This document shows, piece after piece, positions 33,110 to 53,700 of a stretch of DNA of 64,000 nucleotides (the stretch's first letter is position 1; every line of letters begins with the position of its first letter). Below the pieces are notes generated by a model. That model was not told where the DNA came from. It ran no database searches and was given only the letters and a program-made list of their open reading frames with translations. This DNA is from Anaerolineales bacterium (GTDB taxonomy: Bacteria; Chloroflexota; Anaerolineae; Anaerolineales; DRMV01), in NCBI GenBank assembly GCA_026996855.1, contig JALWJZ010000103.1, forward strand, positions 22,185 to 86,184. Direction: 5' to 3'. Position numbers and translations under genes: made by a program.

Positions 33110-33296
33110 GGGCGCCCCCCATTTCTAAGCCCTCCAAGAATTCCTCCAAAGGCACGTAATTGGGGGCCTGTTTTCGAGCCTGGACCACCAACATGTCCAG
33201 GATGTCCTCCCATAGTTCAGGGTCCACCAAAACCCAGGTTTTTCCCTGGGCATCGCGCACCCATCGCGTTTGGGTTTCCAGGCGTTCTTCCAGCAT
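33093..33296 (-). CDS. Cognate antitoxin-like protein
   Basis: 67 aa, overlaps the toxin start; preceded by GGAGGA RBS and CAAGGGTCCCTTG palindrome near 33340. Confidence 0.7.
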   Translation of the reverse strand: MLEERLETQTRWVRDAQGKTWVLVDPELWEDILDMLVVQARKQAPNYVPLEEFLEGLEMGGAREVSG

Positions 33297-35946: not shown

Positions 35947-36492
35947 TCACTCCCCTTCCTCTGGCCCTCTGAGTACCACATGCGCCATCCACCCTTTCAC
36001 CCATTTTCCGTTGACCTTGGCCTCTACTTCAAACCAACGATAGCCCTGGTTTTCGACTTCCTTTCCTGTCCAATACACCACGGTACCGTTAGGCACCACA
36101 ATCACCACTTCGGCTTCTAAACTGGGTTCCTGGCGCAAATTCGCCCCATTCGCTGCTTGGGCCTGAACTGTGAAGGCTTTAAACGGCGTGGGGGTCGGTA
36201 CAGGCGTGGGAGACGGCGCGGGTGTTGGTTGCGGTTTAGGCGTGGGCGTGGGCATAGCGGCAAGGGCTTGCTGGACGCGACGTGGTACCAGGGTTTTGGT
36301 GGCGTAGAACACCCCTGCAACCGTCCCGCTGAAAAAAGCAAAAAGCCCGACTCCCATTAACACCAACGCCATCGTCCAGGATATTTGCGAAACGCGCTGT
36401 TTGAAACTTTCCAAACGGGCTTTCCATCCGGGCTGAACGGGTTGTTCAACAGACACGCTTTGCAGTTTTTCCCAATTGGTAGTCATGACCAC
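35947..36492 (-). CDS. Membrane-anchored bacterial SH3-domain protein
   Basis: One TM helix, Pro/Thr linker, then ANGANLRQEPSLEAEVVIVVPNGTVVYW...GWMAHVVL. Confidence 0.8.
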   Translation of the reverse strand: MVMTTNWEKLQSVSVEQPVQPGWKARLESFKQRVSQISWTMALVLMGVGLFAFFSGTVAGVFYATKTLVPRRVQQALAAMPTPTPKPQPTPAPSPTPVPTPTPFKAFTVQAQAANGANLRQEPSLEAEVVIVVPNGTVVYWTGKEVENQGYRWFEVEAKVNGKWVKGWMAHVVLRGPEEGE

Positions 36493-37661
36493 ACCTCCAA
36501 CCAGAAGTCTTCAGGCTTTTCCTGAGCCAAAGTGACCAAATCCGTTGCCCGACCGGGCAACCCCATGCGCCTGATGTCCGACACCAGAACGCGACGGCGC
36601 TCCGGGTTCGCGGCCACCAAAGCCACGAACCCGCCGTTGGCTTCGGCGTTGTGCCGCCACTTGGCCGGATTCTCTTTGTCGCTGATTTCCACTTCCACGA
36701 ACACACGGCGTTCGGCGTCCAGGGCCAGGTCGGGGGGCGTGGGACTGTCCACCTGGGGCAGCACTTCCACCTTGTAGCCCCGCAACCGGGCGTGCATGGC
36801 CGCGGCCAGCACACCGAGAGTGTGTTTTTCAAAGCGTTCGCCCTCATGGAGACGTATGAGCCGTTCCCAATCGCTTTCCACCGGTTCCCAACCCAACCGA
36901 CGGGCCAGGTCTTTTCCTTCGGATGTGAGCCGATACACGGCCAGACTGGAAGCCACATCTGGCCGCCCGTTCAGCGTGGCTTCCACAAGAAAGCCGCGCT
37001 GGGCCATGAAGGACCCGGCCTTGCGCACCCAGGACCGGGTTGTGTTGGGGGAACGGTGGAAGGCCTGGGCCAGGATGAGCACGTGCTCCATGCGGGTGTT
37101 CACACCGAACCGGGCGAGCAGAAAGACCATCATCAGCCCGCGTTTCCAGCGCACGCCGCCGGAGCGGGCGACCTCACGATACAGGCTGGGCACACGGATT
37201 CCCCCTTCCCAATCCACCTCTTGCAAAGCCCTGGCCCACTCTTGCAGAAGGTCCACACGATGCGGAAGCACAGGCGTTGCGTTGGATGTTGGCTCTGCGA
37301 CTGCGGGTGTTTCATGCTCAGATGTTTCATGCTCAGAGAGAGCAGCCTGCTTCGGCTTGTGCTCTGGTTCTGGCTCTGGACTGCCGTTCCAGGGGCGCGT
37401 GAGCACGTCCTCGAAAAAGCGTTCCCAATCCTGGGCCGTCCAATGTTCCAAAGCCCTGGGATTGGCCTTGCGCAGGGCTTCCAATCGCTCGCCCGCGCCC
37501 AGACGGTAGGCCAGGCGCACCATGAGGGACCGGAAGGCCTGCACTTCGGCCTCGGCCCGTTTTCGCCATTGCCGTTCCAGCGCGGCCAGGCTATCGCTCA
37601 GGCCTGCGGAATCGCGGTGTAGTTCATTTCTCCAATTCACGAACGGCTTGCTCCAGAGCAT
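36483..37661 (-). CDS. Replication-relaxation-like protein (wHTH plus PD-(D/E)xK-like region)
   Basis: wHTH-like LYREVARSGG...; PTPPDLALDAERRVFVEVEISDKENPAKWRHN. Confidence 0.55.
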   Translation of the reverse strand: MLWSKPFVNWRNELHRDSAGLSDSLAALERQWRKRAEAEVQAFRSLMVRLAYRLGAGERLEALRKANPRALEHWTAQDWERFFEDVLTRPWNGSPEPEPEHKPKQAALSEHETSEHETPAVAEPTSNATPVLPHRVDLLQEWARALQEVDWEGGIRVPSLYREVARSGGVRWKRGLMMVFLLARFGVNTRMEHVLILAQAFHRSPNTTRSWVRKAGSFMAQRGFLVEATLNGRPDVASSLAVYRLTSEGKDLARRLGWEPVESDWERLIRLHEGERFEKHTLGVLAAAMHARLRGYKVEVLPQVDSPTPPDLALDAERRVFVEVEISDKENPAKWRHNAEANGGFVALVAANPERRRVLVSDIRRMGLPGRATDLVTLAQEKPEDFWLEVWS

Positions 37662-38046
37662 GAATAGCCTGCTCCTTGGGTATCTGTCCCAGGCTCCAAT
37701 CTCTCACGGCTTTGGCGGCCTGCAAGACGGCCTGTCTCTCCGGTTCCAGGGCTTCCACGCGTTGCTCATTCACCAATCGAAGCGTTTCCTCGTACAGCCA
37801 TTGGCCGCGCACGGCGTCAGGGTTCCCGTCCAAAATCTCGGCCAGAGCCTCGGTTTGGCGGCGCAGCGCCGCCAGTTCGCGGTCATAGGCCCGTTCCTCC
37901 TTGAGGATTTGCCACTCCGTCCAGGTCAACAGTCGGTCTGGTGCCAGGGACTTCCCCAAAGCACCCAGGCCCACCATCACCGCCAGGACAATCAGAAAAG
38001 CGCCTATGAGCATAGGCATTCGTTTGACTTCTAATTCAATCTCCAT
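37624..38046 (-). CDS. Membrane/coiled-coil hypothetical protein
   Basis: N-terminal TM, then charged helices. Confidence 0.65.
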   Translation of the reverse strand: MEIELEVKRMPMLIGAFLIVLAVMVGLGALGKSLAPDRLLTWTEWQILKEERAYDRELAALRRQTEALAEILDGNPDAVRGQWLYEETLRLVNEQRVEALEPERQAVLQAAKAVRDWSLGQIPKEQAIHALEQAVRELEK

Positions 38047-38109: not shown

Positions 38110-38244
38110 TCAGGGCAAAAGGCGGGCGAGGGCGAGGAACCGAGCCAAAACCCACCGGTTCACAGCCTGGCCAACTTTGAGAATGAAGAGCAGTTTGAGA
38201 ACCAGCAGCCAGGCCATCATGCTGAGGGATGCAGAGCCGCGCAT
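38110..38244 (-). CDS. Small hydrophobic peptide (44 aa)
   Basis: GGGAGG RBS; MRGSASLSMMAWLLVLKLLFILKVGQAVNRWVLARFLALARLLP. Confidence 0.5.
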   Translation of the reverse strand: MRGSASLSMMAWLLVLKLLFILKVGQAVNRWVLARFLALARLLP

Positions 38245-38327
38245 GGGAAACCTCCCACAAGTGATTTCCCCATGCCGCGACGAAGTGCCGGGAGCATGGG
38301 TACCCAAATGCTCCCGGCACTTTTCCC

Positions 38328-38762
38328 TCAGCGCGTGCGGAACGTGCCCTCGGCATCCGCCCAACCCTCCAACGCGACCGTACGAGGAAGAAACCACAGA
38401 GACACTTGACCACGACTCACACAACGAATGCGACGCTCACCTACAGGATGGGCTGCAAAAGAAACCCCCTGCAAAACAGGGGCACCCTGGAGGGTGCGCA
38501 GGAACATGGCACGCCCCACCTGCAAGGCTCGCGGGGACCATTTCATGCGTTTCACGCCTGTTTGTTTGAAAGCATCCACACCGTCCTCAAAAGCCACTTG
38601 AACGGCTGCCTCGCATCCCGCGTCCGTGGCCACCTGCAATCGGGCGTCAGCGTAAAGCAAGCGGAGGCCGTCAATGACCAACGCCATCAACGGCATGAGG
38701 ACGAAGCCCAGGAGAAGGGCCGTCCATGCCAGCGACGAGGCTCGAACGGGGCGCATCACCAT
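38328..38762 (-). CDS. TadE/TadG-like pilus assembly protein
   Basis: TM then LVIDGLRLLYADARLQVATDAGCEAAVQVAF. Confidence 0.75.
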   Translation of the reverse strand: MVMRPVRASSLAWTALLLGFVLMPLMALVIDGLRLLYADARLQVATDAGCEAAVQVAFEDGVDAFKQTGVKRMKWSPRALQVGRAMFLRTLQGAPVLQGVSFAAHPVGERRIRCVSRGQVSLWFLPRTVALEGWADAEGTFRTR

Positions 38763-39157
38763 CCCTCCTTGCGGAAGGTGGCCCTGGCCTGGCCATGAAA
38801 ATCCGACATGTTCACGCCGAACCAAGAGGCCAGGCCCTTGAAGTAGTTGGGCACGGTGAAGTCTACGATGACCTGAACCTCACCGCCTCGTTCGGACGCC
38901 GCGACGACTCGAACGCGGTATTGCCCTACCGGGGCCACGGCGATGCGCTGCATGGCCGCCTGACGTGCGAGAGCGGCCGGATTCTCCTGCGCCACGGAAC
39001 CCATGCGGGCACCGTAGTTGGCCGCATTGGACGCCAGCAACCCCGCGTAGCCAAAAAGGGCCAGGTTGAAAAGCCCTATGGAGAGCAACAGAAGCAGCGG
39101 GTAGGTAAAAGCGGCTTCTTCCAATTCCCCGCGGCGTTTACGCCACCATCGCCACAT
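38756..39157 (-). CDS. TadE-like pseudopilin
   Basis: KRRGELEEAAFTYPLLLLLSIGLFNLALFGYAG. Confidence 0.85.
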   Translation of the reverse strand: MWRWWRKRRGELEEAAFTYPLLLLLSIGLFNLALFGYAGLLASNAANYGARMGSVAQENPAALARQAAMQRIAVAPVGQYRVRVVAASERGGEVQVIVDFTVPNYFKGLASWFGVNMSDFHGQARATFRKEGW

Positions 39158-39172
39158 CCCAATCTCACCTCC

Positions 39173-39352
39173 CTACAAACGGCTGGCCAGAGATTGGAAG
39201 GTCTGACTGACACGGCTCCCCAGCGCATACACACCAACTACGGCCACCAAGACGAAGAAAGCAATGAGTAACGCCTTTTCATCCAGTTCCCCGCGACGCT
39301 CTTCCAGCCAAAGGCGCATTTTGATAACCTTCAACATCAGACACTCGACCAT
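39173..39352 (-). CDS. Flp-family type IVb pilin-like protein
   Basis: ERRGELDEKALLIAFFVLVAVVGVYALGSRV. Confidence 0.75.
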   Translation of the reverse strand: MVECLMLKVIKMRLWLEERRGELDEKALLIAFFVLVAVVGVYALGSRVSQTFQSLASRL

Positions 39353-39382
39353 ATCATTACCTCCTTCAGGCGGATTTAAAGC

Positions 39383-39453
39383 AAAAAGGCGTACTACCCC
39401 TCCGGTAGTACGCCAGTCATTTCGCATTATAGAGCCATGGACGCAATGGTCAA
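39383..39453 (-). promoter_or_regulatory. Promoter (TTGACC-N16-TATAAT) followed by leader hairpin and T-tract
   Basis: Minus strand: TTGACCATTGCGTCCATGGCTCTATAATGCGAAATGACTGGCGTACTACCGGAGGGGTAGTACGCCTTTTT. Confidence 0.75.
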
Positions 39454-39816
39454 GACCAAAGCGCCTAAAAAGAAACCCGGAAGAGCGGGAAACGGCGACC
39501 GAAACCCCTGGCCAGCCCACCACAGCATAGCACCCAACCATGCACCAATGGGCAAAACGGGATTAACCAGACTCATAGCGCTCAGGGTCAGCACATCCGC
39601 CGAACCCATCCAAGAACGAAGAAGAAGGCCCAAACCAAACCACACCACAGCCCATATCCAGGCTTCCAGTCCTCCCATAGAGAGACGAAGGGTTATGGCC
39701 CAAAACAACATCCCGGCAAGCGTCCATGCATTCACCTGCCGCGAACGCAGGTCCTGCCAGGCGGCCAGGCCCAACAAGACCAGAAACCCTACCATACCCC
39801 AGGCAGAAGCCGCCAT
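39427..39816 (-). CDS. Prepilin peptidase, A24/TadV-like
   Basis: AAWQDLRSRQVN and MGSADVLTLSAM (GxGD-like site); 129 aa. Confidence 0.8.
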   Translation of the reverse strand: MAASAWGMVGFLVLLGLAAWQDLRSRQVNAWTLAGMLFWAITLRLSMGGLEAWIWAVVWFGLGLLLRSWMGSADVLTLSAMSLVNPVLPIGAWLGAMLWWAGQGFRSPFPALPGFFLGALVLTIASMAL

Positions 39817-40379
39817 CGTACCCTCCGGGCGTACTCGGTGTAACCGTCCAAAATCCCCTCTTCCCACTGAATACGCAGCAACACCGTTACGGTGAGCACC
39901 GCGGCCAGAGCCAGATTGCGCAGGGAGGGGTTCAGAAGCACAACCGGTATCAAACTCAGGGTTTCCCCAGCATACATAGGGTGTCGAATGAACCGATAAG
40001 GGCCGTGTGTGACCAAACCCCGGTCCGCAGGTGCAACACCAAAAGCCGCACCCAGGGAAACCATCCCCCACAAAGCCAGGCCCACACCCACCAGGCCCAA
40101 TGCTTCAGCCCACCATGTCGTATGACCCGCTTCCAATCCCTGGGGGAGAACAGCGTCTATCCATGCGATGACCTTCTGATACCAGGGAGCGTCTCTCCGG
40201 GCCGCCCGCCGATGCCAAAGGCGGAAGGCAGCCAATCCGCCGTGCAAAGCCACGGCCAAGGACAACCAATTTCCCATATCTACAAACCGGCGCAGATTGA
40301 TGCCGGCCAGCAGAACCAGGAAAGCAGTACCTATCAGGGTGAGGCAAACATGGAGAACACGGGAGCACCCAGTACCCAT
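39789..40379 (-). CDS. Isoprenylcysteine carboxyl methyltransferase/PEMT-like membrane methyltransferase
   Basis: GPYRFIRHPMYAGETLSLIPVVLL...EEGILDGYTEYARRVRWRLLPGVW. Confidence 0.85.
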   Translation of the reverse strand: MGTGCSRVLHVCLTLIGTAFLVLLAGINLRRFVDMGNWLSLAVALHGGLAAFRLWHRRAARRDAPWYQKVIAWIDAVLPQGLEAGHTTWWAEALGLVGVGLALWGMVSLGAAFGVAPADRGLVTHGPYRFIRHPMYAGETLSLIPVVLLNPSLRNLALAAVLTVTVLLRIQWEEGILDGYTEYARRVRWRLLPGVW

Positions 40380-41194
40380 AGAAGGAACCCCACGAAAGGC
40401 ATGAAGTAAAAGATAGCCGCGGCCAACACCAACTGGCTGTCCAGTTTCTTGGCCCGTGCCATAACGTCTGTGCGATATTCACGAGCCATAGCGCGGGCAA
40501 TTTCCGACATGAGAAAAGCCCCCTGGGTACCCTTCCGGGCCACCATGTCCAATTGGACGGCCAGCATCAAAATTTCCGGCACACCGCGGGAAAACTTGCG
40601 GGCATAATCCAGGAACATGCCCACCGCAGGGGGACGGGAAAACAGCGGACGTCCGGTTTTCCGAGCCTGCTCGACGGCCTCAGCAATGAAACGGTGAAGC
40701 GGGCCTGAGAGTTGCGCGGCGCGTTCCAAAGCCAGGTCCGGTGATGCGCCCGCGGCCAGTTCCGCAGCCATGACAGTTGCCAATTCAGGAAGTTGACGTT
40801 TAGCCAATCGCTTCGCGCGGGAGGCCCGGTTTCGTACTTTGAGGATGGGGTAATACGTGAGAAGCAGGGGCAGAAACCAGGCCAACCCTTTTGGAATGCC
40901 AACAACCAGGAAAAGGGCCAGATACCCAAATGCCGTCATGACCGCGGCTTCCCCAAGGACGCGGTACGCCGTCACGTTTTTCAAGTACCCGGCTCGCTGC
41001 GCCCAGGTCAAATCCTCTCGGATACGCTTGAGGGAAAACGGGAAACGCTTGGCCAACCAAGCCCCAAATTGCTCCAAGGTACCCCCTTCTCTTCCGCGGT
41101 ATTCAGCCAAAATCGCGGTCGGACGGCGAGATAGTCCCAAATCCAAGGCCCAATATACGGCCAGGCCCAAAGCAAACGCTGCGAAGAAAGTCAT
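40334..41194 (-). CDS. tadC: Tad pilus platform protein TadC-like
   Basis: T2SSF-like; LPELATVMAAELAAGASPDLALERAAQ. Confidence 0.88.
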   Translation of the reverse strand: MTFFAAFALGLAVYWALDLGLSRRPTAILAEYRGREGGTLEQFGAWLAKRFPFSLKRIREDLTWAQRAGYLKNVTAYRVLGEAAVMTAFGYLALFLVVGIPKGLAWFLPLLLTYYPILKVRNRASRAKRLAKRQLPELATVMAAELAAGASPDLALERAAQLSGPLHRFIAEAVEQARKTGRPLFSRPPAVGMFLDYARKFSRGVPEILMLAVQLDMVARKGTQGAFLMSEIARAMAREYRTDVMARAKKLDSQLVLAAAIFYFMPFVGFLLWVLGAPVFSMFASP

Positions 41195-42111
41195 AGGCTC
41201 ACCTCCCGAATGAGGCCCTGGATATAGAAATAGCCCACCACCCCCCAGACCACGAGAAGCACCAAAAGTACCTGATTGAACGGCTGGTAAAACAGGGCTT
41301 TGGTCTGGGGGTTGGACATGATGACAACAAGACCGGTACCCAAGGCCAACAAAATCACTCGGATAGTACCCCATGCACCGGCCGCCGCGGCCATGGCCTC
41401 GGCGCGGGCGTCCAGGATGTGGGTGAGGTTCTCGGCCACCATGTTGAAAGCCTCTACATAACCCACGCCGCCGGTTTCCCACACGCGCTTCAATTCCCGA
41501 AGGAACAGCACCAGAGTTGGCGAAAGCATTTCGGCTTCCTGGATGGCTTGTTGAAAAGCGCGGCCGGGTTCCCGGTGAAGCCGATGGACGAAGGTCTGCA
41601 TCCACTTCCTCAGCGGGCTGTTCTGCTCCATGCTTTCGAGCACTTCATCCAGGGCTTGCAAAAGATTGGGGGTGATGGGAAGGGTGGCAGCCAGGCGGGT
41701 CAGCACCAAAGGGAGTTCCTTTTCCATGCGCTGACGAAAGTCCTTCCACTTGGTCTCTACCCAGGTGCGCACCAGGAAATAAGATGCTACAGGGGATGCA
41801 AGGACAAAGACAGGTGGTAGAAACACCGCGGCCAGACTGCCCACCACGACGGTGGAAGCCAGAACACCAAACCAAAAGGCCCTGTTTTCCCAACCTTTGA
41901 CGTCCAGGCCCAGGGATTGGAAAGCCAGGCGAATGGGCAACGCCCGGTCAACAATCAACGTTTTTTGGTCGTCACGGCTTCGCATGTATTGCCGCAAGGT
42001 AGTCTGCACCCGGTGGCTATTCCAAAGGGATAGTCCCAAATCCAAAGCCCAGTAAACAGCCAGGCCCAAAGCAAACGCCACTATGATGGGTATAACCAAA
42101 TCCATCATCAT
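41191..42111 (-). CDS. tadB: Tad pilus platform protein TadB-like
   Basis: T2SSF-like; ELPLVLTRLAATLPITPNLLQALDEVLE. Confidence 0.88.
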   Translation of the reverse strand: MMMDLVIPIIVAFALGLAVYWALDLGLSLWNSHRVQTTLRQYMRSRDDQKTLIVDRALPIRLAFQSLGLDVKGWENRAFWFGVLASTVVVGSLAAVFLPPVFVLASPVASYFLVRTWVETKWKDFRQRMEKELPLVLTRLAATLPITPNLLQALDEVLESMEQNSPLRKWMQTFVHRLHREPGRAFQQAIQEAEMLSPTLVLFLRELKRVWETGGVGYVEAFNMVAENLTHILDARAEAMAAAAGAWGTIRVILLALGTGLVVIMSNPQTKALFYQPFNQVLLVLLVVWGVVGYFYIQGLIREVSL

Positions 42112-43334
42112 CGCCGCTCCCTGGTGAGGGGTTCCATGGAAGTGTCGCCGTAACGGTACACCTGGCGGAACTTCACATCTCCGCCTTTGAAACCTGCAAC
42201 TTCGTGAACGGCCAGCACCCGCCGTTTGCCGTCCGCCCAACCCACGGTGACCACCACATCTATGGCCTGCTCGAAGATGGCTTTGGCGGCCTCCATACGC
42301 ACCTGGGCGTCGGCGAACATGATGACGGCCAGACGAAACACCGCGTGCTGGGGACTTTCCGCGTGGAACGTAGACAGACCGGGGTGGTCGGACATCTGGG
42401 CGCGGAACAGGGCCAGGGCTGCATCGCCCGTGCGCACCTCACCCACGATGAGCCATTGCGGTGCCATGCGCATAGCATCGTCCACGCCGTCCTTCAGGGT
42501 GTACGGCGGTACCTGGCTTCCGGGCATGGAAGACCGGGCTTCGAGCGTGACCACATTGGGATGCCGGAGCCAGATTTCTTCAGGGTCCTCAATCTTCACC
42601 ACGCGTGCATCGGCCGGGATGCCCCCGTTGGCCAGGGCACTGAGGAAAGTGGTCTTGCCCGTGGCCGTGCCACCAATGACCAAAACCCGCAGTTTTCGCC
42701 CGACCGCGGCGCATAAAGCGTCCATGACAAAATCCGGGGCCATTTCCCAGGCAATGATGTCCTGGGGCAGGATGGGTCGGGCTTCAAACAAACGAATGTT
42801 AATGGCGGGGTACCCTTCCCCTGGGGCCAACACAGGATGCACGATTTTTACACGTGCGCCCCCCGTTCCATGGAACCGAGGCAAACGAGCGTTTACTGAA
42901 GGATTGGCTTCGTTCAAAGCCCGCCCCGTAGGGGCCAACAGGGCTTCCACAGCGCGCCAGGCTTCTTCTACTGTGGGGCGATAATCCCACGGCTCGAAAT
43001 GCTCAGCCCCTTTTCGCAACAACCACACCGAGCCATCAGGGTTCAAAGCAATCTCGGTCAGGTCGTTTCGAGAAGGAGGCAATAGCGCACCAAGAAAACC
43101 CATCCCGCCCACTTGAGCGGCTGCTCGGCGCGCCATATCTTCCACCAACACCGGCCCCGCGGTTAGACCCTTTTCTGCAAGGAGGCGGTGCACTTCTTGG
43201 CGGGCCTCTTTCAAGAGGGCTTCTGTATCCCGAACCACGGCAAGGGGTAGCCGTCCTAACCGTTCCACAGCTTCCCGAACGATGTTGTCCTGGTGCTCTG
43301 TGGTTAGCGTTTGGGCAAATTGCGTCCAGGTCAT
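42108..43334 (-). CDS. tadA: Tad secretion ATPase (CpaF/TadA)
   Basis: VIGGTATGKTTFLSALA; PQWLIVGEVRTGDAALALFRAQMSDHPGLSTFHAES. Confidence 0.94.
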   Translation of the reverse strand: MTWTQFAQTLTTEHQDNIVREAVERLGRLPLAVVRDTEALLKEARQEVHRLLAEKGLTAGPVLVEDMARRAAAQVGGMGFLGALLPPSRNDLTEIALNPDGSVWLLRKGAEHFEPWDYRPTVEEAWRAVEALLAPTGRALNEANPSVNARLPRFHGTGGARVKIVHPVLAPGEGYPAINIRLFEARPILPQDIIAWEMAPDFVMDALCAAVGRKLRVLVIGGTATGKTTFLSALANGGIPADARVVKIEDPEEIWLRHPNVVTLEARSSMPGSQVPPYTLKDGVDDAMRMAPQWLIVGEVRTGDAALALFRAQMSDHPGLSTFHAESPQHAVFRLAVIMFADAQVRMEAAKAIFEQAIDVVVTVGWADGKRRVLAVHEVAGFKGGDVKFRQVYRYGDTSMEPLTRERR

Positions 43335-43353
43335 GACTCCCTCGCTTCCGGTC

Positions 43354-44616
43354 TCACGTTCGCACCTTTACCCGCACCGGTCCCATCCGATACTCCTGGG
43401 CTGCGTTGGATGCGGCTGCGACCGCGGGCATGGGCGGAACCAATGCATTGACAAGTCCCTGAATAGCCTTTCGAAACTCCCCCACACCCAGTGGGGACTG
43501 ACGTCGGTCCTGGGCCACGGCCACCGCGGACAGGAAAGGAATGGTCGCGGCCAAAGGCGGGAAAGTGGCCCCCGACACGTCCCGCAGCATCTCTGTTGCG
43601 GCCCGGTGCCATTCTTTGGGCGCGATGCGTCCGCCCACCATGTTCAGGGCCACCAAGATGTGATTCGCGGGCAGGCGGTGCTCGCCGGACACGCGTTCGG
43701 TGACCGTGCGGTAGGCTTCCACAGTGCTCAGGATGTCGGCCAGAGAAGGTCTGGCTACCAACACCAAATGAGTGGCCGCAGTGATGGCTTGGGCCGCGAT
43801 ATTCGCGTTAGGGGTGTCCAGGACGAGCAGGGCATACCCTGCCCTGGCCGCGGTGCTCACCAACGCAGACAGCGAAGCCGGGTTTTCGGTAGGCAATGCG
43901 GAAAAGCGGGCCTCGGTGAGTACATCCGGGAACCCCCCTAACACGGCCAGGCCGTTCAGCATTTGCAAACTTTCCTGCAACCCTTCTACCGAGGGATTGG
44001 CCATCCAGGATGTGATATTGGGTTCAGGCTTCAAGCCCAGAACCAGGGGGTTGGTGTCCGGGGTATCCAGGCCCACCAACATGGTGGGCACGCCGCGAGT
44101 TGCGGCTTCCAGGGCCACTGCCGCGGCCAATGTGCTTTTCCCCGTACCGCCTGCATGATTCCAGAACATCACCACGCGAAAACCCACCACCAACGCGGGG
44201 CCAGATGGGGCCGCTTGCGGCGAAACCTCTGCCCCACCCCATCCCCCTGTGGTTGTCATGACTGCGGCGGCCACAATGCGGTCGGGAAGTTTGTGCAGGT
44301 CTTCGAAATCCCCTATATGCACCTCCCGCACCCTGGGCATCTGGGCAAAGGCCTGACGCATCTCCGCGGCCTGGGGCGGCAGGACCAGAAAGACCTCCGC
44401 CTGTACGGCCTGCAGGAACCGCTGCAGGGGGTCCGGCCCACCGAAGAGGGTGGCATCCAGGACCAAGGCCTGGGGGTTGTAGGCCATCTTGGATTGCAGG
44501 TCTTCGACGCTCAGGGCCACCGAGACCACATGGAGCCGGTCGTCGTCGCTGAGCACCGGCCCCCATACGTTGAGGCGAGGCATGGGAGCGGCAATCAAAA
44601 CCGTGACCTTGGTCAT
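43354..44616 (-). CDS. TadZ/CpaE-like MinD/ParA-type ATPase
   Basis: FWNHAGGTGKSTLAAAVALEAA; N-terminal receiver-like domain. Confidence 0.85.
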   Translation of the reverse strand: MTKVTVLIAAPMPRLNVWGPVLSDDDRLHVVSVALSVEDLQSKMAYNPQALVLDATLFGGPDPLQRFLQAVQAEVFLVLPPQAAEMRQAFAQMPRVREVHIGDFEDLHKLPDRIVAAAVMTTTGGWGGAEVSPQAAPSGPALVVGFRVVMFWNHAGGTGKSTLAAAVALEAATRGVPTMLVGLDTPDTNPLVLGLKPEPNITSWMANPSVEGLQESLQMLNGLAVLGGFPDVLTEARFSALPTENPASLSALVSTAARAGYALLVLDTPNANIAAQAITAATHLVLVARPSLADILSTVEAYRTVTERVSGEHRLPANHILVALNMVGGRIAPKEWHRAATEMLRDVSGATFPPLAATIPFLSAVAVAQDRRQSPLGVGEFRKAIQGLVNALVPPMPAVAAASNAAQEYRMGPVRVKVRT

Positions 44617-45461
44617 TTGCTTTCCTCCGCTTGCTCGGATGGTTGCGGAAACACCACCATAGCGGGCACGAAGAAGCCCGAAGTCCGAATGCTGACCTCA
44701 GCATTCGGGGGAACCAAAAAGAGGCTCAAGCGCGCGCCATCCGACATTTGCAAAGCAGCCAGCAATTCCACGGGGTTCACAGGCATGGTGACGTTTTCCG
44801 CTCCGAACGTTTGAAACTCGTACACCACATTCACCGGCTCTGCAGGTACGGCCACCACCACTGCCCCCTCTTTAGATTTCATGGAGCCAATACTCCCCAA
44901 AAGGGGGTCCTCACTGCCCGTTTCTTGCAAAGCCTGGAACTCCGGCGATACGTATAGCACCCGCAACCCTTCAATGACCACCTTAGCGTAATCCCCTGAG
45001 ACCAGGGGCGTTTGCGCTTCCCCTGCTTCTTCCACAGGGAAACGGGCCAGGATGGCCTGGACAAAAGTCTGGTCGTCAATAAGAGCGACCACGCCCACCT
45101 TGTCACCGGGCTTGAGCACACCCGCGACGCCGGAGGCATCGTCCACCTGGATGGCCATCGCACGCTCGTCGGGATTGAGGTCGAACTGCCATGGTCCCAG
45201 ATGGGCCTGACGAATCACATCCCCCGCGCTCCGTGGTACGGCCAGGGTCTGGCCCAAGACGCTCTCGATGGATGTCAATGCGTCTTCAGGGGCCAGGTTT
45301 TCGGGCATGGCTTGCAGGGTCACGTCTCCTTCCGAGATGACCTGACCGGGGGCCAGGTCGCGAGCGGCGACCACAACTTGAACGGTTTGAGTCTGTGAAA
45401 GCAAGTACACCACCGCGGCCACCAACAGAGCGATGCCAATGCGCAGCGCTTTACTCAACAT
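44613..45461 (-). CDS. cpaB: Flp pilus assembly protein CpaB/RcpC (SAF domain)
   Basis: VVVAARDLAPGQVISEGDVTLQAMPENLAPEDALTSIESVLGQTLAVPRSAGDVI. Confidence 0.92.
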   Translation of the reverse strand: MLSKALRIGIALLVAAVVYLLSQTQTVQVVVAARDLAPGQVISEGDVTLQAMPENLAPEDALTSIESVLGQTLAVPRSAGDVIRQAHLGPWQFDLNPDERAMAIQVDDASGVAGVLKPGDKVGVVALIDDQTFVQAILARFPVEEAGEAQTPLVSGDYAKVVIEGLRVLYVSPEFQALQETGSEDPLLGSIGSMKSKEGAVVVAVPAEPVNVVYEFQTFGAENVTMPVNPVELLAALQMSDGARLSLFLVPPNAEVSIRTSGFFVPAMVVFPQPSEQAEESK

Positions 45462-45639
45462 GGCTTTTCTCCTTCTTCACGGTCTGTTTGGCAATCAACA
45501 AAAGCGTCAAGGCTTCTTCCAGGGATTTCCAATCCACGTCCAGCACATGCTGGTTTTGGTCCACCACCACAACCAGGGCCCGGTTGCCTTGCAGTAAACG
45601 CTTCACGGTCTCTTCCAGAACTCGTTTCACATCGTTCAT
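45451..45639 (-). CDS. Small hypothetical protein in tad operon
   Basis: 62 aa; overlaps neighbours by a few nt. Confidence 0.6.
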   Translation of the reverse strand: MNDVKRVLEETVKRLLQGNRALVVVVDQNQHVLDVDWKSLEEALTLLLIAKQTVKKEKSHVE

Positions 45640-45905
45640 GGCGCCACCTCGTTTGCACTGGTTGCCGTCATCGTGGGGCCGGGTGTCACGGTTGGCGTGT
45701 ACACCCAATGTGGAGGCGGAGTGACCCCCTGCCACCATCCCGAAAGGGTGGGTGTGGGTGTGGCCGTGGAGGGCACGGTCACCATCCATGCCGTAGGCGT
45801 TGGGGTTCTCCCGCCATTTCCACTCCAGGACAGACCTCCCAGGGCCATAAGCATGGCCAGCAGAAAAACCAACAGCACCAGGAACCCCATGACGCTTTGC
45901 TTCAT
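45636..45905 (-). CDS. Small membrane-anchored Pro/Thr-rich protein
   Basis: MKQSVMGFLVLLVFLLAMLMALGG then Pro/Thr-rich tail; ATGA overlaps on both sides. Confidence 0.65.
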   Translation of the reverse strand: MKQSVMGFLVLLVFLLAMLMALGGLSWSGNGGRTPTPTAWMVTVPSTATPTPTLSGWWQGVTPPPHWVYTPTVTPGPTMTATSANEVAP

Positions 45906-48900
45906 ATCCGTATCCTCCCCAGTCGCGCAGCGATTTCCGTGTCGTCTGGCTCCGGTACGTCCAGCATCAAGGGTTTGAAAAGCACGGGGCGCTGATAAGC
46001 CCGGTCGAAGGTGTATGGGAAGCGACCAATTTGCAGGCCAATGGGCATATCGGTGAGGAAGCGCCGCCATTCCTCATCGCGGAAACCTTTCTCCGAGAAA
46101 CCCAGGGCGGCCAGCACGATGTCCTTGTCCCTGGGGTTCTTGAGGAAGGCGATGCACAGGTTGTTGCAGGAACTGATGATGTCCTGGGGAATGAGGGAAG
46201 GGGCCTGGGTGATGACGTGCAAACGCACGCCGTACTTCCGCGCATCCCGGAACATGTCTCCGAAACGCTGGGCCGCAGAGATGCCCTCCTCGGCCTCTTC
46301 AAAGGACGCGGCCCCAAAAATCTTGTTGGCCTCTTCGAAGAAAATTTGCAACAACGGCTCATCGGGACCGGCCAGGTGGCGCACCCGGCGGGTCATCATG
46401 TCCATGTAGAGGTGCCAGCCCAACCATCCCAGCAGGAAAGCCTTACCGAAGTCGTCCAGGAAGGAGCCGCCTTCCACAATGAGGATGCCCCAGGGCCGGG
46501 CCATTTCCTCCACGGGCACCACGTCCGGCCCCGGCTCGAACATCCGGGACGCCGCTCCCTGAACCAGGGGGTTGAGCCGGTACAGAATGCCCTCCAGCAC
46601 CCCCTGAAGCATGGTGTCCCGCGGAGGCACGGTAGTCAGTTTTTCCTGGACCTGACGGTACAGGTCAGCCAGGCCCACCTTGCTACTTCGATGCACCGCG
46701 ATGGCTTGCTTTTGTTCCCAGGTGAGGTCGCTCAGGGGTGTTCCCGCGGAAACACCCACCAGGTCGGCCTCGTCGGGCTGCACCCTGCCCCATTTGGGGT
46801 CGGTGCGGATTTCGGGGTCGTCCACCAGAACCCCGGCCCGCAGGTACACTTGTCGCAACGCGTCCAGAAGTTCCTGTTTCTGTCGGCGCACGCCCAGGCG
46901 GGCGATGGAACCAAAGATGTCCGCAAAGGCTCGCCACTGGGTTTCGGGGTCAATGTTGCGACCGATTTGGAGGGGGTTCCAGCGCAGGGGCCGGGGAGCA
47001 TCGGGCCAGAGTTGACGAATGTCCACGTGCCCTTCCAGGCCGGGCGCGTTGAGAAGCGCCCGCCAGCCCGCGCCGAAGTCCAGCACCACGGTGCGGGTGC
47101 GCCATTTGAGCGTGGTCTCATAGGCCATGCGGATGGCCGATACCGATTTCCCCCACCCCGTGTCCCCTGCAAACAGGGTATGGAAAAGCCGCCGTTGGTC
47201 CAGGCGCACAGGCGCGGTGGTGAGTTCGTGGGTAGTGGGCGAAACCTGGTGCCCCAGCACCACATCGCCGGGCATGTCGGGATAGAACCCCATGCCCTCC
47301 GGGATGGGTGCCATGACGGTCACCGTGGACCCTTCTTCGATGAGCGCGGGTGCGGTATATGCGGCCACCTGGCCCGCGGTGAGTAGGGTCGTGTACTTGG
47401 TCCAGAGTTTTCCACCAAAGGGGTCGTTCTCCGCAGGTCCATGCCAGGGCAGAAAAGCCAGGGCGTGATAGCGCAGGGGTTCCACGTCCTGGGGTTCTGG
47501 ATGCACGGTAAGCACGGGTGTGGGCACGTTCGGCCCATGGAAGGCCTGGGGAACTAGGCTTTCCACCGCGGCTGCGGCCTCTTCGTCGTCCACCCATATC
47601 AGGGCCTCGGTCATAAAGCCGCCCTCCGCGCTGGCCTGGTTGAGGATACCCTCCAGTCCCCGCAGGATTTCCGTGAGGCGCATGGCCACGTCGTCTTCGG
47701 TTTGCCAGGAACGCCCAATGCTGACGCCGGGCACCAGGCCCGCGCTCAGGCCCGAAACCCATCCGTATCCACCGGCATGGCCTGCCGCGTTGGACACGCC
47801 TTTGCTCTCTGCATGGGACAGCCCCCACCCCTCACTTTTCGTATCCGCTTGCGACCAGGTGTCGGATTGGCTTCTTGTGGTGGACCAGAACCGGGACACG
47901 GACACGGATTTCCCTTTCGTATGTGCGTGGCTGTGGGTGACACTGGTTGTATCCGCCGTCCCCCAGGTTTCTGACCGTCCCGTGGTATGCGCGGTGCCAT
48001 GGGTCACCGTGGTACTGGAAAAGGTGCCCGATGTTGTCGTCACTCCCCACGTACTCGCACCGCCCACAGAAGCGCTCACCGTATCGGAGGTGGAAGTGGT
48101 ATTGGCATCACTTTGCATGGTACTGATGGAGCCCGACAACGATGCACTCCGTGACGCGCTCTGGGTACCGGACCAGCCGACTTCTCCAGACACATTGGCG
48201 TTCCATCCACCATTCACGCCTGCCCCTAACGTTCCAGGTACACCCAGGCTCACGTTGCCTCCGGCATGATAACCTGCACTCCCCCCTACACTGGCGCTTT
48301 GTGTAAAGGATTGTCCCACCGTGAGGCTTTGGCCTACGGTTATGCCTTGGGTGGTGCCGGAAGTATGCGTTTTGGCCGTCCCCGTTGTATGGGCACCACC
48401 TATGGACCAGCTCGAAGAGCCTCCTGCGCTATGACCCACAGAGCCACTTGTTCCCTCAGTATGGCTGACGGAAGTGCTGTGGGTCGTGCTTTCAAAGGTG
48501 CCCACGGAATGGCTCACCGTATGTGCCCGTCCGTGCGCCACGCCTGTGGTGTCTGCTGAACTGTGGGTAACGGTCACGCTTCCACCAGTCGTATGGGCCA
48601 CGCCCTCTGTGTGGGCATAGCCCTCAGTATGGGCCTGGCCCCACTGCCGGGATACCCCGTCCGTGTGGGCCACACTTTCCGCACGTCCTGCCATGCCCGA
48701 GTGGGAAAGGGTGCGACCCAGGGCGGCCATGATGGGCACGCCCAGGGAAAAGCCGATACTGAGGGCCCCTCGCTGCCGCGAGGCCACGATGGACGCCAGT
48801 TGCGCCACTTCTACCAGGGTTTTGGACAGATAACGCCGGGGCAGGGCCTCGGCCACGGTCTGAAACACGAAGTTCTTGCGCAACTTGGCCAGGCCCCGGA

Positions 48901-49453
48901 AAAGGATTTCGTTCTGTTCCGCGGCCAGGTCATCGGGTGTGGGATTGGGTAGAGAACCGTCTTCTCCGTACAACCCCCGCCGGGTCTCCCGCGGATCCGG
49001 GAAACCCAGCAGCACCAGGGGACGGCGTGCGGACATGATGAACCGAAGATACCACTCCAGGTACTCCGTCTCCGGAGGCACCGTTCGAGACTGGGGGTAG
49101 TTTGCCAGGGTCGCCAACACCGCGGCCAGCTGTTCCCGGGCTCGAGCGATGGCTTCATCCTTCGTGTCCGCGGTGGCCGCGGCGCCGTAGAACTGCACGA
49201 TGCCCACGTAACGAGGCCGAAACATGCCCATGGCGCTGTATACGAAGTTCACCCCCGCGTTGTACATGCCCCGGATGGCGGCCCACTGCTTTCCCAGAAG
49301 GTCGTAGTCTTCCTTGGCGGCGATGGGGATGGCGTGAAGCCGATGCAGGGCTACTGCCCTGTACAACGTTCGTCCTTCGGGAGTGGCGATGTGGAACCAC
49401 AGCGCGCCCACTTCACCGCCGTTGTCATGTACACCTGAAGCCAGAATACACAT
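45902..49453 (-). CDS. VirB4/TraC/HerA-like ATPase with ~330-aa Ser/Thr/Gly/His-rich insert
   Basis: Walker A FAGDTGWGKSVSA; Walker B-like LLQIFFEEANKIFG; low-complexity insert about aa 251-582. Confidence 0.88.
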   Translation of the reverse strand: MCILASGVHDNGGEVGALWFHIATPEGRTLYRAVALHRLHAIPIAAKEDYDLLGKQWAAIRGMYNAGVNFVYSAMGMFRPRYVGIVQFYGAAATADTKDEAIARAREQLAAVLATLANYPQSRTVPPETEYLEWYLRFIMSARRPLVLLGFPDPRETRRGLYGEDGSLPNPTPDDLAAEQNEILFRGLAKLRKNFVFQTVAEALPRRYLSKTLVEVAQLASIVASRQRGALSIGFSLGVPIMAALGRTLSHSGMAGRAESVAHTDGVSRQWGQAHTEGYAHTEGVAHTTGGSVTVTHSSADTTGVAHGRAHTVSHSVGTFESTTHSTSVSHTEGTSGSVGHSAGGSSSWSIGGAHTTGTAKTHTSGTTQGITVGQSLTVGQSFTQSASVGGSAGYHAGGNVSLGVPGTLGAGVNGGWNANVSGEVGWSGTQSASRSASLSGSISTMQSDANTTSTSDTVSASVGGASTWGVTTTSGTFSSTTVTHGTAHTTGRSETWGTADTTSVTHSHAHTKGKSVSVSRFWSTTRSQSDTWSQADTKSEGWGLSHAESKGVSNAAGHAGGYGWVSGLSAGLVPGVSIGRSWQTEDDVAMRLTEILRGLEGILNQASAEGGFMTEALIWVDDEEAAAAVESLVPQAFHGPNVPTPVLTVHPEPQDVEPLRYHALAFLPWHGPAENDPFGGKLWTKYTTLLTAGQVAAYTAPALIEEGSTVTVMAPIPEGMGFYPDMPGDVVLGHQVSPTTHELTTAPVRLDQRRLFHTLFAGDTGWGKSVSAIRMAYETTLKWRTRTVVLDFGAGWRALLNAPGLEGHVDIRQLWPDAPRPLRWNPLQIGRNIDPETQWRAFADIFGSIARLGVRRQKQELLDALRQVYLRAGVLVDDPEIRTDPKWGRVQPDEADLVGVSAGTPLSDLTWEQKQAIAVHRSSKVGLADLYRQVQEKLTTVPPRDTMLQGVLEGILYRLNPLVQGAASRMFEPGPDVVPVEEMARPWGILIVEGGSFLDDFGKAFLLGWLGWHLYMDMMTRRVRHLAGPDEPLLQIFFEEANKIFGAASFEEAEEGISAAQRFGDMFRDARKYGVRLHVITQAPSLIPQDIISSCNNLCIAFLKNPRDKDIVLAALGFSEKGFRDEEWRRFLTDMPIGLQIGRFPYTFDRAYQRPVLFKPLMLDVPEPDDTEIAARLGRIRI

Positions 49454-49472
49454 TACTGTTTCCTCCTCTTTT

Positions 49473-49535
49473 GGCCAATAGGCCTTAACACCCCTTAAGC
49501 CCGGCCTATAGGCCCTGCAGGAAGGCCTATAGGCC
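49473..49535. repeat. Three GGCC(T/A)ATAGGCC palindromes upstream of the ATPase gene
   Basis: 49473-49484 GGCCAATAGGCC; 49503-49514 and 49524-49535 GGCCTATAGGCC. Confidence 0.85.
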
Positions 49536-50081
49536 CTTTCCGCGCGTGCGCACCTGGGCGATGAGGTCCTCCGGTGTTTGCGGCAACGGTGGATGGGCAA
49601 ACAGGGCCTGGGCCAGCATAGCGAAGAAACCCACGGGGTATGCGTACAGAGCAATGGCGGCCAGGGCTTCCAGGTACGATGCCCCGCCAGCGAGCCAATC
49701 CTGTCCGGTGCGAGCCAGGACCGAGCGGTAGAGCATCACACCCAGGGCAATAAGTACGTACAGGGCCAGGCCCTGGGTGATGCGCCAGTACAGGGCCTGG
49801 GGGTTGAACCGTTCCAAACGCCAGGCCAGCCATCCCCCCAGGGCCATGGCCCCCATCATCAGGCCCACCACCGTAGGAGCAAACACGGCTGTAATCAACA
49901 TGACGGCCAATACCCCGGCCATCCAGCGTCGCCGAAGCGTGTCCTGCTGTTGTAGCAACAAAGGTGCGGCCGCGGCCAGGAGCAACCACAGCCGCCAGGC
50001 CTCCAGCACCGCATACACCACAGCCAAAAAACCGTTGAGCACCCAAAGGCCGGGAAGCCACCAGGGATTTGGCATGGTCAT
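49527..50081 (-). CDS. Polytopic membrane protein, hypothetical
   Basis: ~5-6 TM helices; ATGA overlap with upstream gene. Confidence 0.7.
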   Translation of the reverse strand: MTMPNPWWLPGLWVLNGFLAVVYAVLEAWRLWLLLAAAAPLLLQQQDTLRRRWMAGVLAVMLITAVFAPTVVGLMMGAMALGGWLAWRLERFNPQALYWRITQGLALYVLIALGVMLYRSVLARTGQDWLAGGASYLEALAAIALYAYPVGFFAMLAQALFAHPPLPQTPEDLIAQVRTRGKGL

Positions 50082-50995
50082 CCCTCACCATCCCACCAGA
50101 CGAGAGGAGGCCCTAAGTAGCGTGGATGGAAAGACCAAGCCTGACCTCCCCCATCGAAACGTGGGTGCAGCACGGGAACTGGAGCACCTAAATGCTCCTG
50201 ACCAGCGCACCCTGTACCCAAACAAGTGATGGGACCAGGAAAACCTCGACCGGGGTCCCATCCACGACCGGGGTCATGTCCGGACTCACAAGCCAGGCTT
50301 AGGCAGGTATCCACTGGTTCGGATGAGCCGCTTTGGGAACCCCCTCCCAAGGTGGTGTCCAACAGCCACACCCGGACGTAGAACGTCCGAGTTTTACTCT
50401 GCCCGTCCCGCTGGCGGGTATGCACGCGAATTTCATACACGCCGGGGTCCACAGGGAGGAAATGGGCGTGCATCTCCGCAGTCTCGCCCAGCACGTGGTG
50501 TTTCAAAGTCCAGGATGGTTCCGGGTTCTTGGGCTTTGCACCCGGATACCACTGCCCCAGGGTACCCGTAATCCAAGCGCGGCTGGGAGCAGTCAACCGG
50601 ATGTATTCCACATCCAGCGACACGATGTCCGAGCGGTTTTCCCCGCGCCAGCACCCGTTGTTCTTGGCTCCGCCTCGCGCTTTGACCAGGATGGTCACCC
50701 CTTCCCGCTCGGCATCCTGCCCTACCACCACGGGATAAGGCGGTGCCACCCCTTCCAACCACAACGCAGGTTCGTCATAAGTGGGGTCACATGGGGGCGG
50801 AGGCGGCGGGGAATCGTTATTTGTATTGTCGTCATCCTCGCACAGAAAAGCCCAAGGGCCAACACAATCGCGAAAGTCTGTTATACCTGAATCAGGATTA
50901 CCCGGCACACCTGGGTTGAAAACCGGAGGCATGACGCTGGCCATGGAGACCAAGCCCAACAGAGTTAGCACCACCAACCATCGCTTCATGAGCAA
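50078..50995 (-). CDS. Secreted hypothetical protein
   Basis: N-terminal signal peptide MKRWLVVLTLLGLVSMASVM; Ig-like/β-rich body with paired cysteines. Confidence 0.7.
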   Translation of the reverse strand: MLMKRWLVVLTLLGLVSMASVMPPVFNPGVPGNPDSGITDFRDCVGPWAFLCEDDDNTNNDSPPPPPPCDPTYDEPALWLEGVAPPYPVVVGQDAEREGVTILVKARGGAKNNGCWRGENRSDIVSLDVEYIRLTAPSRAWITGTLGQWYPGAKPKNPEPSWTLKHHVLGETAEMHAHFLPVDPGVYEIRVHTRQRDGQSKTRTFYVRVWLLDTTLGGGSQSGSSEPVDTCLSLACESGHDPGRGWDPGRGFPGPITCLGTGCAGQEHLGAPVPVLHPRFDGGGQAWSFHPRYLGPPLVWWDGEG

Positions 50996-51208: not shown

Positions 51209-51553
51209 TTAGGCCCGCCCATCGCCCGCAGGCCGGTAGGCCGAGGACGACAAAGGCACGGGCTCCCCAAAGAAACTGACATGACGCACCGCTACATAGG
51301 TGCTGGGATTTTCCCCCTGCCATAGGGTAACCAGCCTGCCATAGAGCACTACCTGAATCCGACATGGGCCATAGGCTTCAAAATAGGCTCGTGCCAATTC
51401 CGCACCCCGTCCCATCAGCACCACAGGATGCCGCCCACCCAGATAAGGTTTGCCCGTATCCACATGGGTGCGGAGCGCCAGGCGTCCGTCCACCCTCTCG
51501 AAAACATTGCGAATCTCAAGCCAGCCTTGCAGCACCACCACGTTGTTGCTCAT
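51209..51553 (-). CDS. Single-stranded DNA-binding-like OB-fold protein
   Basis: MSNNVVVLQGWLEIRNVFERVDGRLALRTHVDTGKP...VVLYGRLVTLW. Confidence 0.6.
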   Translation of the reverse strand: MSNNVVVLQGWLEIRNVFERVDGRLALRTHVDTGKPYLGGRHPVVLMGRGAELARAYFEAYGPCRIQVVLYGRLVTLWQGENPSTYVAVRHVSFFGEPVPLSSSAYRPAGDGRA

Positions 51554-52443
51554 AGCGCCACCTCTTCCACGGCCCGGGCCAGGTCCTGGGCCGAGGGTTC
51601 CACGTACCGCCGGGTCGTGTCCAGGCTCTTGTGGCCCAGGATACGAGCCACTTTTTCCAGCGAAACCCCGGCATCCACCAGGGACTTGGCAAATGTGTGC
51701 CGAAGCACGTGAGGGGTGGCTTCTACACCCGCTTCCCGAGCCACGCGAGCCACGGCCCGTTGAACCGTGCGCACGGTCAGACCATCCCGGACCGCCCATA
51801 CTTGATCGCCTTCGATGTCAGCATCACGTCGGGTTGTCTTCCATCGGCGTAACGCATCCCGCGCGGCTTTGTTCAGGGGCACCACCCGCTGCTTGTCCCC
51901 TTTGCCCCGTACCAACAGGTGACCCTTGCGCTCGCCGAGCACGACGTCGGACCACCGCAGGCGAACCACTTCGCCAGCGCGCAAGCCCGTGTTCAGCAGG
52001 AACAGGGTGAGCAGGGCGTCCCGCTCGTACACCACCCACCGAACCGGATACCGCAGCCGGGCCACTTGCAAAATCCGCTCCGCAGCCCGCCGCAGGGCAT
52101 ACCGCTCTCGCTTGTCCAGCCATCGAAGGCCGGGCGGTTGCTCCCGGAGCCCAGGTACCCGTCGCGCGGGGTTTTCGGAAATCCGACCCTGATGCCTGGC
52201 CCAGTCCAGCCAGGCACGTACCGCGGCCAGACGACGGTTCACCGTCGCTGCCCGCAGACCTCGACGCTGAAGCCAATTGCGATATTCCCGCACATCGGAC
52301 GGTGTGACCCTCTCAGGTTCCAGAGTCTCACCGTTGGTATGCTCGAACCAAACGGCAAACTGCTGCAAGTCCCGCACGTAGCCTCCCACAGTCACCGGAC
52401 TGGCCTGGGCGCTGAGATGCCGGGCAAAGTCTTCAAAAGCCAT
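51550..52443 (-). CDS. XerC/D-like tyrosine recombinase
   Basis: LLNTGLRAGEVVRLRW; HVLRHTFAKSLVDAGVSLEKVARILGHKSLDTTRRYV. Confidence 0.93.
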   Translation of the reverse strand: MAFEDFARHLSAQASPVTVGGYVRDLQQFAVWFEHTNGETLEPERVTPSDVREYRNWLQRRGLRAATVNRRLAAVRAWLDWARHQGRISENPARRVPGLREQPPGLRWLDKRERYALRRAAERILQVARLRYPVRWVVYERDALLTLFLLNTGLRAGEVVRLRWSDVVLGERKGHLLVRGKGDKQRVVPLNKAARDALRRWKTTRRDADIEGDQVWAVRDGLTVRTVQRAVARVAREAGVEATPHVLRHTFAKSLVDAGVSLEKVARILGHKSLDTTRRYVEPSAQDLARAVEEVAL

Positions 52444-53638: not shown

Positions 53639-53700
53639 CTAAGCGTCCACTAAGCGGCGGCTAAGCGTCCACTAAGCGGTGCCGCTTAGGTGCCGCTTAG
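53639..53700. repeat. 11-bp-period CTAAGCG/CGCTTAG array, putative centromere (parS-like)
   Basis: CTAAGCG at 53639, 53650, 53661, 53672; CGCTTAG at 53683, 53694. Confidence 0.92.

Follow-up and report, generated by a model that had tools for sequence, protein, structure and literature searches.

DNA-pumping ATPases and type IV-class pili have been found together in several mobile elements and DNA-exchange systems. In linear plasmids of Cutibacterium acnes, a tad locus lies beside conjugation-type ATPases on a mobile replicon, separate VirB4, TcpC and FtsK-like genes being reported, and the authors leave open whether Flp pili and conjugation are linked (PMC5696575). The Sulfobacillus plasmids pL15/pY0017 and an integrated relative combine TadA, TadB and TadC with VirB4 in one backbone and carry a relaxase and a TraG coupling protein (PMC6803676). 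Thaumarchaeal ICEs possess a VirB4-like ATPase with TadC/FlaI and pilins but no relaxase, with VirD4 and VirB6 homologues, mostly non-syntenic genes and, in the Nitrosocaldus cases, tRNA insertion (PMC6563490; PMC5797428). Finally, in the Ced/Ups (and Ted) systems of crenarchaea, a HerA/VirB4-like ATPase works with type IV pili, without a relaxase, for DNA import, Ced and Ups being separate gene sets that are not on a mobile element (PMC9905601; PMC11868833). Here, we analyzed a 64,000-nucleotide stretch (the window) of an Anaerolineales bacterium of the Chloroflexota (assembly GCA_026996855.1, contig JALWJZ010000103.1, positions 22,185 to 86,184), in which an ATPase of the FtsK–HerA superfamily and a complete Tad pilus set form one operon on an integrative element. 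Compared with the Sulfobacillus plasmids, neither a relaxase nor a TraG coupling protein was found; compared with the thaumarchaeal ICEs, gene order is strongly kept and VirD4 was not found; and compared with Ced/Ups, ATPase and Tad pilus are in one operon on a mobile element. No Cutibacterium plasmid matched the ATPase in a plasmid search, although whether these plasmids are part of that collection was not established. No paper on this association was found, which is weak evidence as only an open-access library was searched.

The initial annotation had described, from the sequence alone, Tad pilus genes translationally coupled to a VirB4/HerA-like ATPase, and this observation is confirmed. 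The operon is on the minus strand (50995→36483). It is headed by sec305 (50078–50989, ATG start, with an upstream TTG at 50995), a secreted or anchored protein, followed by mem184 (49527–50081), a membrane protein with 3-4 TM which lies immediately 5' of the ATPase in 28 of 36 loci with upstream sequence. After the ATPase gene (45902–49453) come p89 (45636–45905), a small protein with one N-terminal TM, a small 62-aa protein (45451–45639), CpaB/RcpC (44613–45461; PF08666, PF16976), a TadZ/CpaE-like ATPase (43354–44616; PF01656, TIGR03815) and the pilus motor TadA/CpaF (42108–43334; PF00437, 83 bits; TIGR03819, 135 bits). TadB (41191–42111) and TadC (40334–41194) are supported by weak PF00482 matches and by profiles. 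They are followed by a PEMT/ICMT-type membrane methyltransferase conserved in place in relatives (39789–40379; PF04191, 48 bits), the TadV prepilin peptidase (39427–39816; PF01478, 22 bits), a Flp-type prepilin with one TM helix (39173–39343), a TadE-like minor pilin (38756–39157; PF07811) and a TadG/E-like protein (38328–38825; PF13400). All the components expected of a Tad/Flp (type IVc) pilus are hence present. The six overlaps named beforehand (50081/50078, 45905/45902, 45639/45636, 44616/44613, 42111/42108 and 41194/41191) are real 4-nt stop/start overlaps of the ATGA type. There are exceptions to this coupling, as the ATPase ATG (49453) lies 73 nt after the upstream stop, with its own AGGAGG-type site, and a 19-nt gap separates tadZ from tadA. 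The operon is also longer than first described, since two more conserved genes follow tadG: p140 (37624–38046), a small single-TM protein, and p392 (36483–37661), a winged-helix plus PD-(D/E)xK-like protein that is a candidate DNA-processing nuclease. The nuclease motif of p392 was recognized by eye, a sister family scores with Replic_Relax (PF13814) only at borderline, and homologues lie at the operon in six of the genomes compared (designated G027, G203, G234, G130, G378 and G346) and on the Clostridia megaplasmid pRUMAL01.

Regarding the ATPase (1183 aa), it matches NCBIfam NF033849 ('serine-rich protein', ser_rich_anae_1) over its full length, with 1135 bits against a cut-off of 650. The name of this family gives no function and no link to Tad or to mobile elements, both of which are added here. 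The protein comprises an N-terminal domain (residues 2-225), a disordered Ser/Gly/Thr-rich linker (226-585) and a HerA/VirB4-like motor (586-1183), with a Walker A motif (G763DTGWGKS) and a Walker B motif (IFFEEA from 1037). The full-length structural model was poor outside the ordered domains (mean pLDDT 54.5) and the core was therefore folded again (pTM 0.71). The predicted fold matches HerA (E 1.4e-11) and VirB4 (target TM 0.62-0.63) in the PDB, and the protein belongs to the FtsK–HerA superfamily. It is not a VirB4 proper by profile criteria: TrbE gave 10 bits, no Pfam hit was obtained, the family does not pass PF12846, and the fold match to VirB4 is good but not exclusive. It also falls far below the equivalog cut-offs of HerA (29 of 970 bits) and CedD (26 of 600 bits). 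Similarity of the motor to HerA is as good as to VirB4, and HerA proteins also serve repair and defence. Among characterized DNA-transport families, the weak CedD hit, which reaches 65 bits in a Rhodococcus relative, together with the requirement of CedD for DNA import (PMC11868833) and of a Tad locus for natural transformation in Micrococcus luteus (cited in PMC6668835), could suggest a competence system in the manner of Ced/Ups or the Micrococcus Flp system, in which Tad pili bind or bring in DNA and the ATPase pulls it in. We consider this doubtful. Indeed, competence genes are usually chromosomal core, while here they are on integrative, patchily present elements with their own integrase and ParA, and no ComEC/DprA-type partner was seen in the operon.

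The initial annotation had itself proposed that the idea of one apparatus would fall if homologous ATPases were consistently unlinked to tad genes. Such ATPases were sought in 397 genomes and 26 contigs and, as a rule, were not found. Of 31 ATPase loci with at least 8 kb of downstream sequence, 27 carry a same-strand tadA; of the four others, one has tadA at 16.8 kb, two (L051 and L117) begin inside the ATPase, so that tad could lie upstream as in genome G287, and one (L076, in genome G009) has tadZ only within 9.7 kb. Among further apparent exceptions, a locus of genome G230 (L158) shows no tad in the 14 kb read, while genomes G097 and G160, which have a strong TadA but no visible ATPase, are on contigs that are short or end beside the tad genes. 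The linkage is also retained in divergent copies (family f54) and recurs, in the same order, on two Clostridia megaplasmids, pB6464 and pRUMAL01, and is thus more than chance. Moreover, ATPase and TadA distances correlate (r 0.90) as tightly as those of TadA and TadC do (0.91). In the phylogenetic tree, the TadA associated with the ATPase in Chloroflexota form one clade (100/100 support) apart from chromosomal TadA, including the one of the host itself, and an ordinary chromosomal Tad system was rejected on this ground. The Clostridia TadA fall outside this clade, with long branches, and the link there may be independent. It is possible that a DNA pump using mem184 as pore and an adhesive Tad pilus, only helping biofilm formation of the host, are two independent functions that merely share a promoter. 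In genome G287, the mem184-ATPase pair lies downstream of tadC instead of upstream, which shows that the two blocks are separable. However, this reading is unlikely, as the blocks stay linked even after that rearrangement, ATPase distances track TadA as closely as TadC does, and 4-nt overlaps tie the blocks together in the window.

The genomic setting had not been recognized by the initial annotation. The operon is the core of a 28.9-kb integrative element (31823–60716) bordered by a 64-bp att repeat (31823–31886 and 60653–60716, 98.4% identical), the second copy of which overlaps the 3' part of a tRNA-Ser(TGA) gene (60655–60744, minus strand). A tyrosine integrase of 277 aa with R, HxxR, H and Y all present (31909–32742, minus strand; PF00589, 94 bits) lies beside the distal att, and a homologue occupies the same position in the elements of G203 (contig C1) and G027. 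In G203:C1, the same layout is found at tRNA-Lys, with a 44-bp exact repeat. In the complete genome G027, 65-bp exact repeats of tRNA-Leu are located at 2022652, 2156385 and 2175736, with the integrase beside the second, and genes which directly follow tRNA-Leu in its congener G061 are displaced by 153 kb. The criteria of a site-specific integrative element are therefore fulfilled, the empty site being demonstrated for the G027 relative and not for the window itself. For the G234 element, at tRNA-Pro, only an 11-nt repeat was found, which leaves its att repeat undecided. Presence is patchy, with 2 of 10 sampled species of the genus of G027 concerned. A phage origin was rejected, as no relative was found in phages or viral contigs.

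Whether these elements are integrative and conjugative elements is less clear, self-transfer not having been assayed. No PF03432 relaxase was found in the elements of the 11 genomes searched, not all other relaxase families having been examined, PF02534 (VirD4) hits lie outside the elements, and no VirB6/VirB8 was recognized. In favor of DNA transfer, a distant relative on a Rhodococcus plasmid lies three genes downstream of a MOBP relaxase with MobC. The megaplasmid pRUMAL01 also carries a MOBP relaxase by MOB-suite typing. That no relaxase or VirD4 was found would be compatible with an alternative in which the operon is a protein-export or contact-dependent delivery/adhesion machine carried as useful cargo, the ATPase energizing a secreted or surface protein, sec305 or the large secreted proteins found in relatives, rather than DNA transport. 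Indeed, sec305 heads the operon in most loci, many relatives have a large secreted protein between tadC and tadV, Tad systems elsewhere mostly act in adhesion, and Tad-type Kil pili mediate contact-dependent killing of prey (PMC12075869). We consider this explanation unlikely, although less so than the other two, because cargo varies between elements whereas this module keeps its order in elements at different tRNAs and on plasmids, as a backbone does, and because the ATPase is predicted to fold like DNA translocases.

The interpretation of the initial annotation, that ATPase and pilus machinery may act as one apparatus, for example for DNA transfer through a Tad pilus in a monoderm-like envelope, is only partly supported. 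One apparatus is the best reading, since the FtsK-HerA/VirB4-like translocase is consistently tied to a distinct Tad clade and sits on mobile elements, and a monoderm envelope fits what is said of Chloroflexota (PMC13319060). In contrast, literal transfer through the pilus is not supported. Type IV-class filaments are packed helices without a DNA-sized lumen, and a Ced/Ups-like division of labour, in which the pilus makes contact and a separate pore passes DNA, is likelier. We favor, as somewhat more likely than not, that the operon is a transfer module. In this view, the tyrosine integrase would excise the element; p392, or one of the recombinases, would prepare the DNA in place of a standard relaxase; Tad pili built by TadA/B/C and TadZ would draw a recipient into contact; the ATPase, docked at the membrane through mem184, would pump the DNA across the two monoderm membranes beside the filament; and the element would then integrate at a tRNA 3' end. 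While the element borders, the integrase, the conserved gene linkage, the fold class of the ATPase and the correlated divergence of ATPase and Tad proteins have been demonstrated, we only infer that ATPase and pilus form one machine, that its cargo is DNA, the direction of transfer, and the roles of p392 and mem184, no transfer data being at hand.

A bolder proposal, which we put forward tentatively and rate as somewhat less likely than not, is that of a previously undescribed bacterial DNA-transfer system in which a Tad pilus replaces the type IV secretion mating apparatus and a single serine-rich HerA/VirB4-like pump replaces VirB4 and VirD4, without a standard relaxase, driving a family of tRNA-integrating elements in Chloroflexota and some Clostridia megaplasmids. 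Most Chloroflexota are uncultured and how they exchange DNA is little known. A conserved Tad-plus-pump module as backbone of integrating elements would give NF033849 proteins a function, explain why a special Tad clade exists beside the chromosomal one, and be a bacterial counterpart of archaeal Ced/Ups exchange. The question raised for C. acnes plasmids, whether Tad pili and conjugation are linked, becomes directly testable.

The remainder of the element, also on the minus strand, encodes a second tyrosine recombinase (51550–52443; PF00589, 118 bits), a replisome-organiser-like protein that is a probable replication initiator (52471–53505; PF09681, 23 bits, just below cut-off), a ParA partition ATPase (54646–55530; PF13614, 107 bits) and, next to it, a conserved backbone protein (53686–54360). 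A conserved backbone membrane protein (57046–57903) has homologues in the G234 (5e-45) and G027 (8e-43) elements. At the tRNA end, a double MerR-like HTH protein (60028–60597; PF13411) is a candidate excisionase/regulator, found at the same place beside the tRNA in G234 and G203:C1. At the opposite end, near the integrase, lies a ParE-type toxin (32852–33109; PF05016, 44 bits), whose partner antitoxin is probably encoded at 33093–33296.

The organization of the operon proposed in the initial annotation, in which Tad pilus genes are coupled to a VirB4/HerA-like ATPase, was confirmed. Minus-strand genes running from a secreted protein (50989/50995) through a 3-4-TM protein (mem184), a 1183-aa ATPase, two small proteins, cpaB, tadZ, tadA, tadB, tadC, a methyltransferase, tadV, the pilin, tadE and tadG were recovered and identified by profile searches. 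The six 4-nt overlaps between successive genes exist, while the ATPase itself starts at ATG 49453 after a 73-nt gap, and two further conserved genes, termed p140 and p392, close the operon. Regarding the ATPase, it matches the NCBIfam family NF033849 "serine-rich protein" over its whole length with a score of 1135 bits (cut-off 650), whereas hits to HerA, CedD and TrbE are weak. Structure prediction shows an N-terminal domain (residues 2-225), a disordered linker (residues 226-585) composed of 18% Ser, 17% Gly and 16% Thr, and a motor (residues 586-1183). Although it is not settled whether this protein is nearer to VirB4 or to HerA, the motor modelled alone (pTM 0.71) matches HerA of Sulfolobus (E 1.4e-11), TdpA and VirB4 of Thermoanaerobacter (target TM 0.62-0.63), and it is therefore a translocase of the FtsK-HerA superfamily.

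Consistent absence of tad genes next to homologous ATPases had been put forward beforehand as an argument against a functional link, and it is not what we observed. Among 397 genomes of the class, 29 have the ATPase family over its cut-off. TadA matches to the window protein fall into two groups, about 27 genomes at 180 bits or more and nearly 300 at 165 bits or less, the strong ones being mostly on the contig of the ATPase, while several of the others lie on short contigs or at contig ends. Profile scans found tadA on the same strand within 16 kb in 27 of the 31 ATPase loci with at least 8 kb of downstream sequence; of the other four, one has tadA at 16.8 kb, two begin inside the ATPase gene and one has tadZ only. 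Of note, four of the loci are near-identical in TadA and come from one Anaerolineales MAG (JADHXE01 contigs, loci L041, L043, L044 and L054), which holds at least four near-identical ATPase-tad loci. The mem184 gene is directly upstream of the ATPase in 28 of 36 loci, while in one genome (G287) the mem184-ATPase pair lies downstream of tadC yet stays linked. Divergent copies in family f54 keep ATPase, tadZ, tadA, tadB and tadC together, with, in genome G140, p392 and a mem184-like gene as well. Likewise, plasmids pB6464 (Alkaliphilus) and pRUMAL01 (Ruminococcus albus) carry serine-rich protein, AAA (TadZ-like), CpaF-type, TadB, TadC and peptidase genes in this order. Pairwise distances of ATPase and TadA correlate at 0.90 and those of TadA and TadC at 0.91, although shared host ancestry may contribute. 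In a tree of 55 TadA, the 35 Chloroflexota mobile-type TadA form one clade (100/100) apart from 15 chromosomal ones, among them the host's own, while the two Clostridia TadA are outside it, on long branches.

The operon lies within a mobile element. Indeed, the 3' part of tRNA-Ser (60653-60716) is repeated at 31823-31886, with 63 of 64 bases conserved, beside a tyrosine integrase gene with its catalytic residues in place, and the element has a lower GC content (0.611) than its flanks (0.651 and 0.663). An empty site for this element was not shown, in the absence of a close relative of the host for comparison. A second element, on contig C1 of genome G203, has the same layout at tRNA-Lys with a 44-bp exact repeat; within it, a six-gene cluster (9961-18563, loci L088/L087) contains a second, HerA-like ATPase (568 aa, 14365-16071) and is possibly a defence island carried as cargo. 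In the complete genome G027, five congeners align with it up to the last base of tRNA-Leu and then differ, and the genes that directly follow tRNA-Leu in the congener G061 lie 153 kb away in G027, behind two more 65-bp copies of the tRNA end, with an integrase beside the nearer copy. A second insertion of 19.4 kb (G027 contig C1, 2156385-2175800), bounded by the same 65-bp tRNA-Leu repeat, stands in tandem behind the Tad element. Inside the 134-kb tRNA-Leu element sits what looks by eye, no profile search having been made, like a type I CRISPR-Cas operon (2141185-2150373, loci L152-L153), with a long ORF-free stretch (2130334-2141185) that may be its array. Backbone genes shared between elements include ParA, the genes at 53686 and 57046 and a double-HTH protein next to the tRNA. 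Within the genus of G027, 2 of 10 sampled species have the ATPase family.

Searches of 11 carrier genomes found no PF03432 relaxase and no VirD4 (PF02534) inside the elements. A sister protein in genome G234 reaches Replic_Relax at borderline, and relatives of p392 have a PD-(D/E)xK-like motif by eye. In addition, proteins that look like Rad52-type annealing proteins are found near the operon end (G234 contig C3, 320437-321195, and G027 contig C1, 2066449-2067357), Pfam giving no hit for the one tested. A distant relative of the ATPase on a Rhodococcus plasmid (105 bits to NF033849) lies near MobC and a MOBP relaxase, which hints at a conjugative past. While the gene linkage and the fold class of the ATPase are results of the analysis, its function is inferred, and we judge, with moderate confidence, a role in DNA transfer to be most likely, contact being made by Tad pili and pumping by the ATPase with mem184 at the membrane. 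The proposal of the initial annotation that the ATPase and the pilus act as one apparatus, for example for DNA transfer through a Tad pilus, is supported only in part, as transport through the filament is unlikely because type IV-class pili lack a DNA-sized lumen. Protein delivery is an unlikely alternative, and uncoupled functions of the two gene sets or DNA import appear more doubtful still.

Tad genes beside VirB4-type ATPases have been reported on Cutibacterium plasmids (PMC5696575), Sulfobacillus plasmids (PMC6803676) and archaeal ICEs (PMC6563490), while Ced/Ups pairs a HerA/VirB4-like ATPase with type IV pili (PMC9905601, PMC11868833). None of these reports, as read here, describes this ATPase family with Tad as the sole transfer-like module. 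Since a PF03432 relaxase and VirD4 were sought in 11 carrier genomes and not found inside the elements, we do not classify the element as an ICE. Outside the Tad elements, VirD4-like and weak VirB4-like hits lie side by side (G027 contig C1, 4289712-4292815, and G234 contig C14, 5196-8341), suggesting a possible separate T4SS. Finally, the window contains, outside the element, a dispersed repeat of about 97 bp (60805-60900, 20758-20854 and 12533-12581; 91% identical), of which the third copy is partial and inverted.
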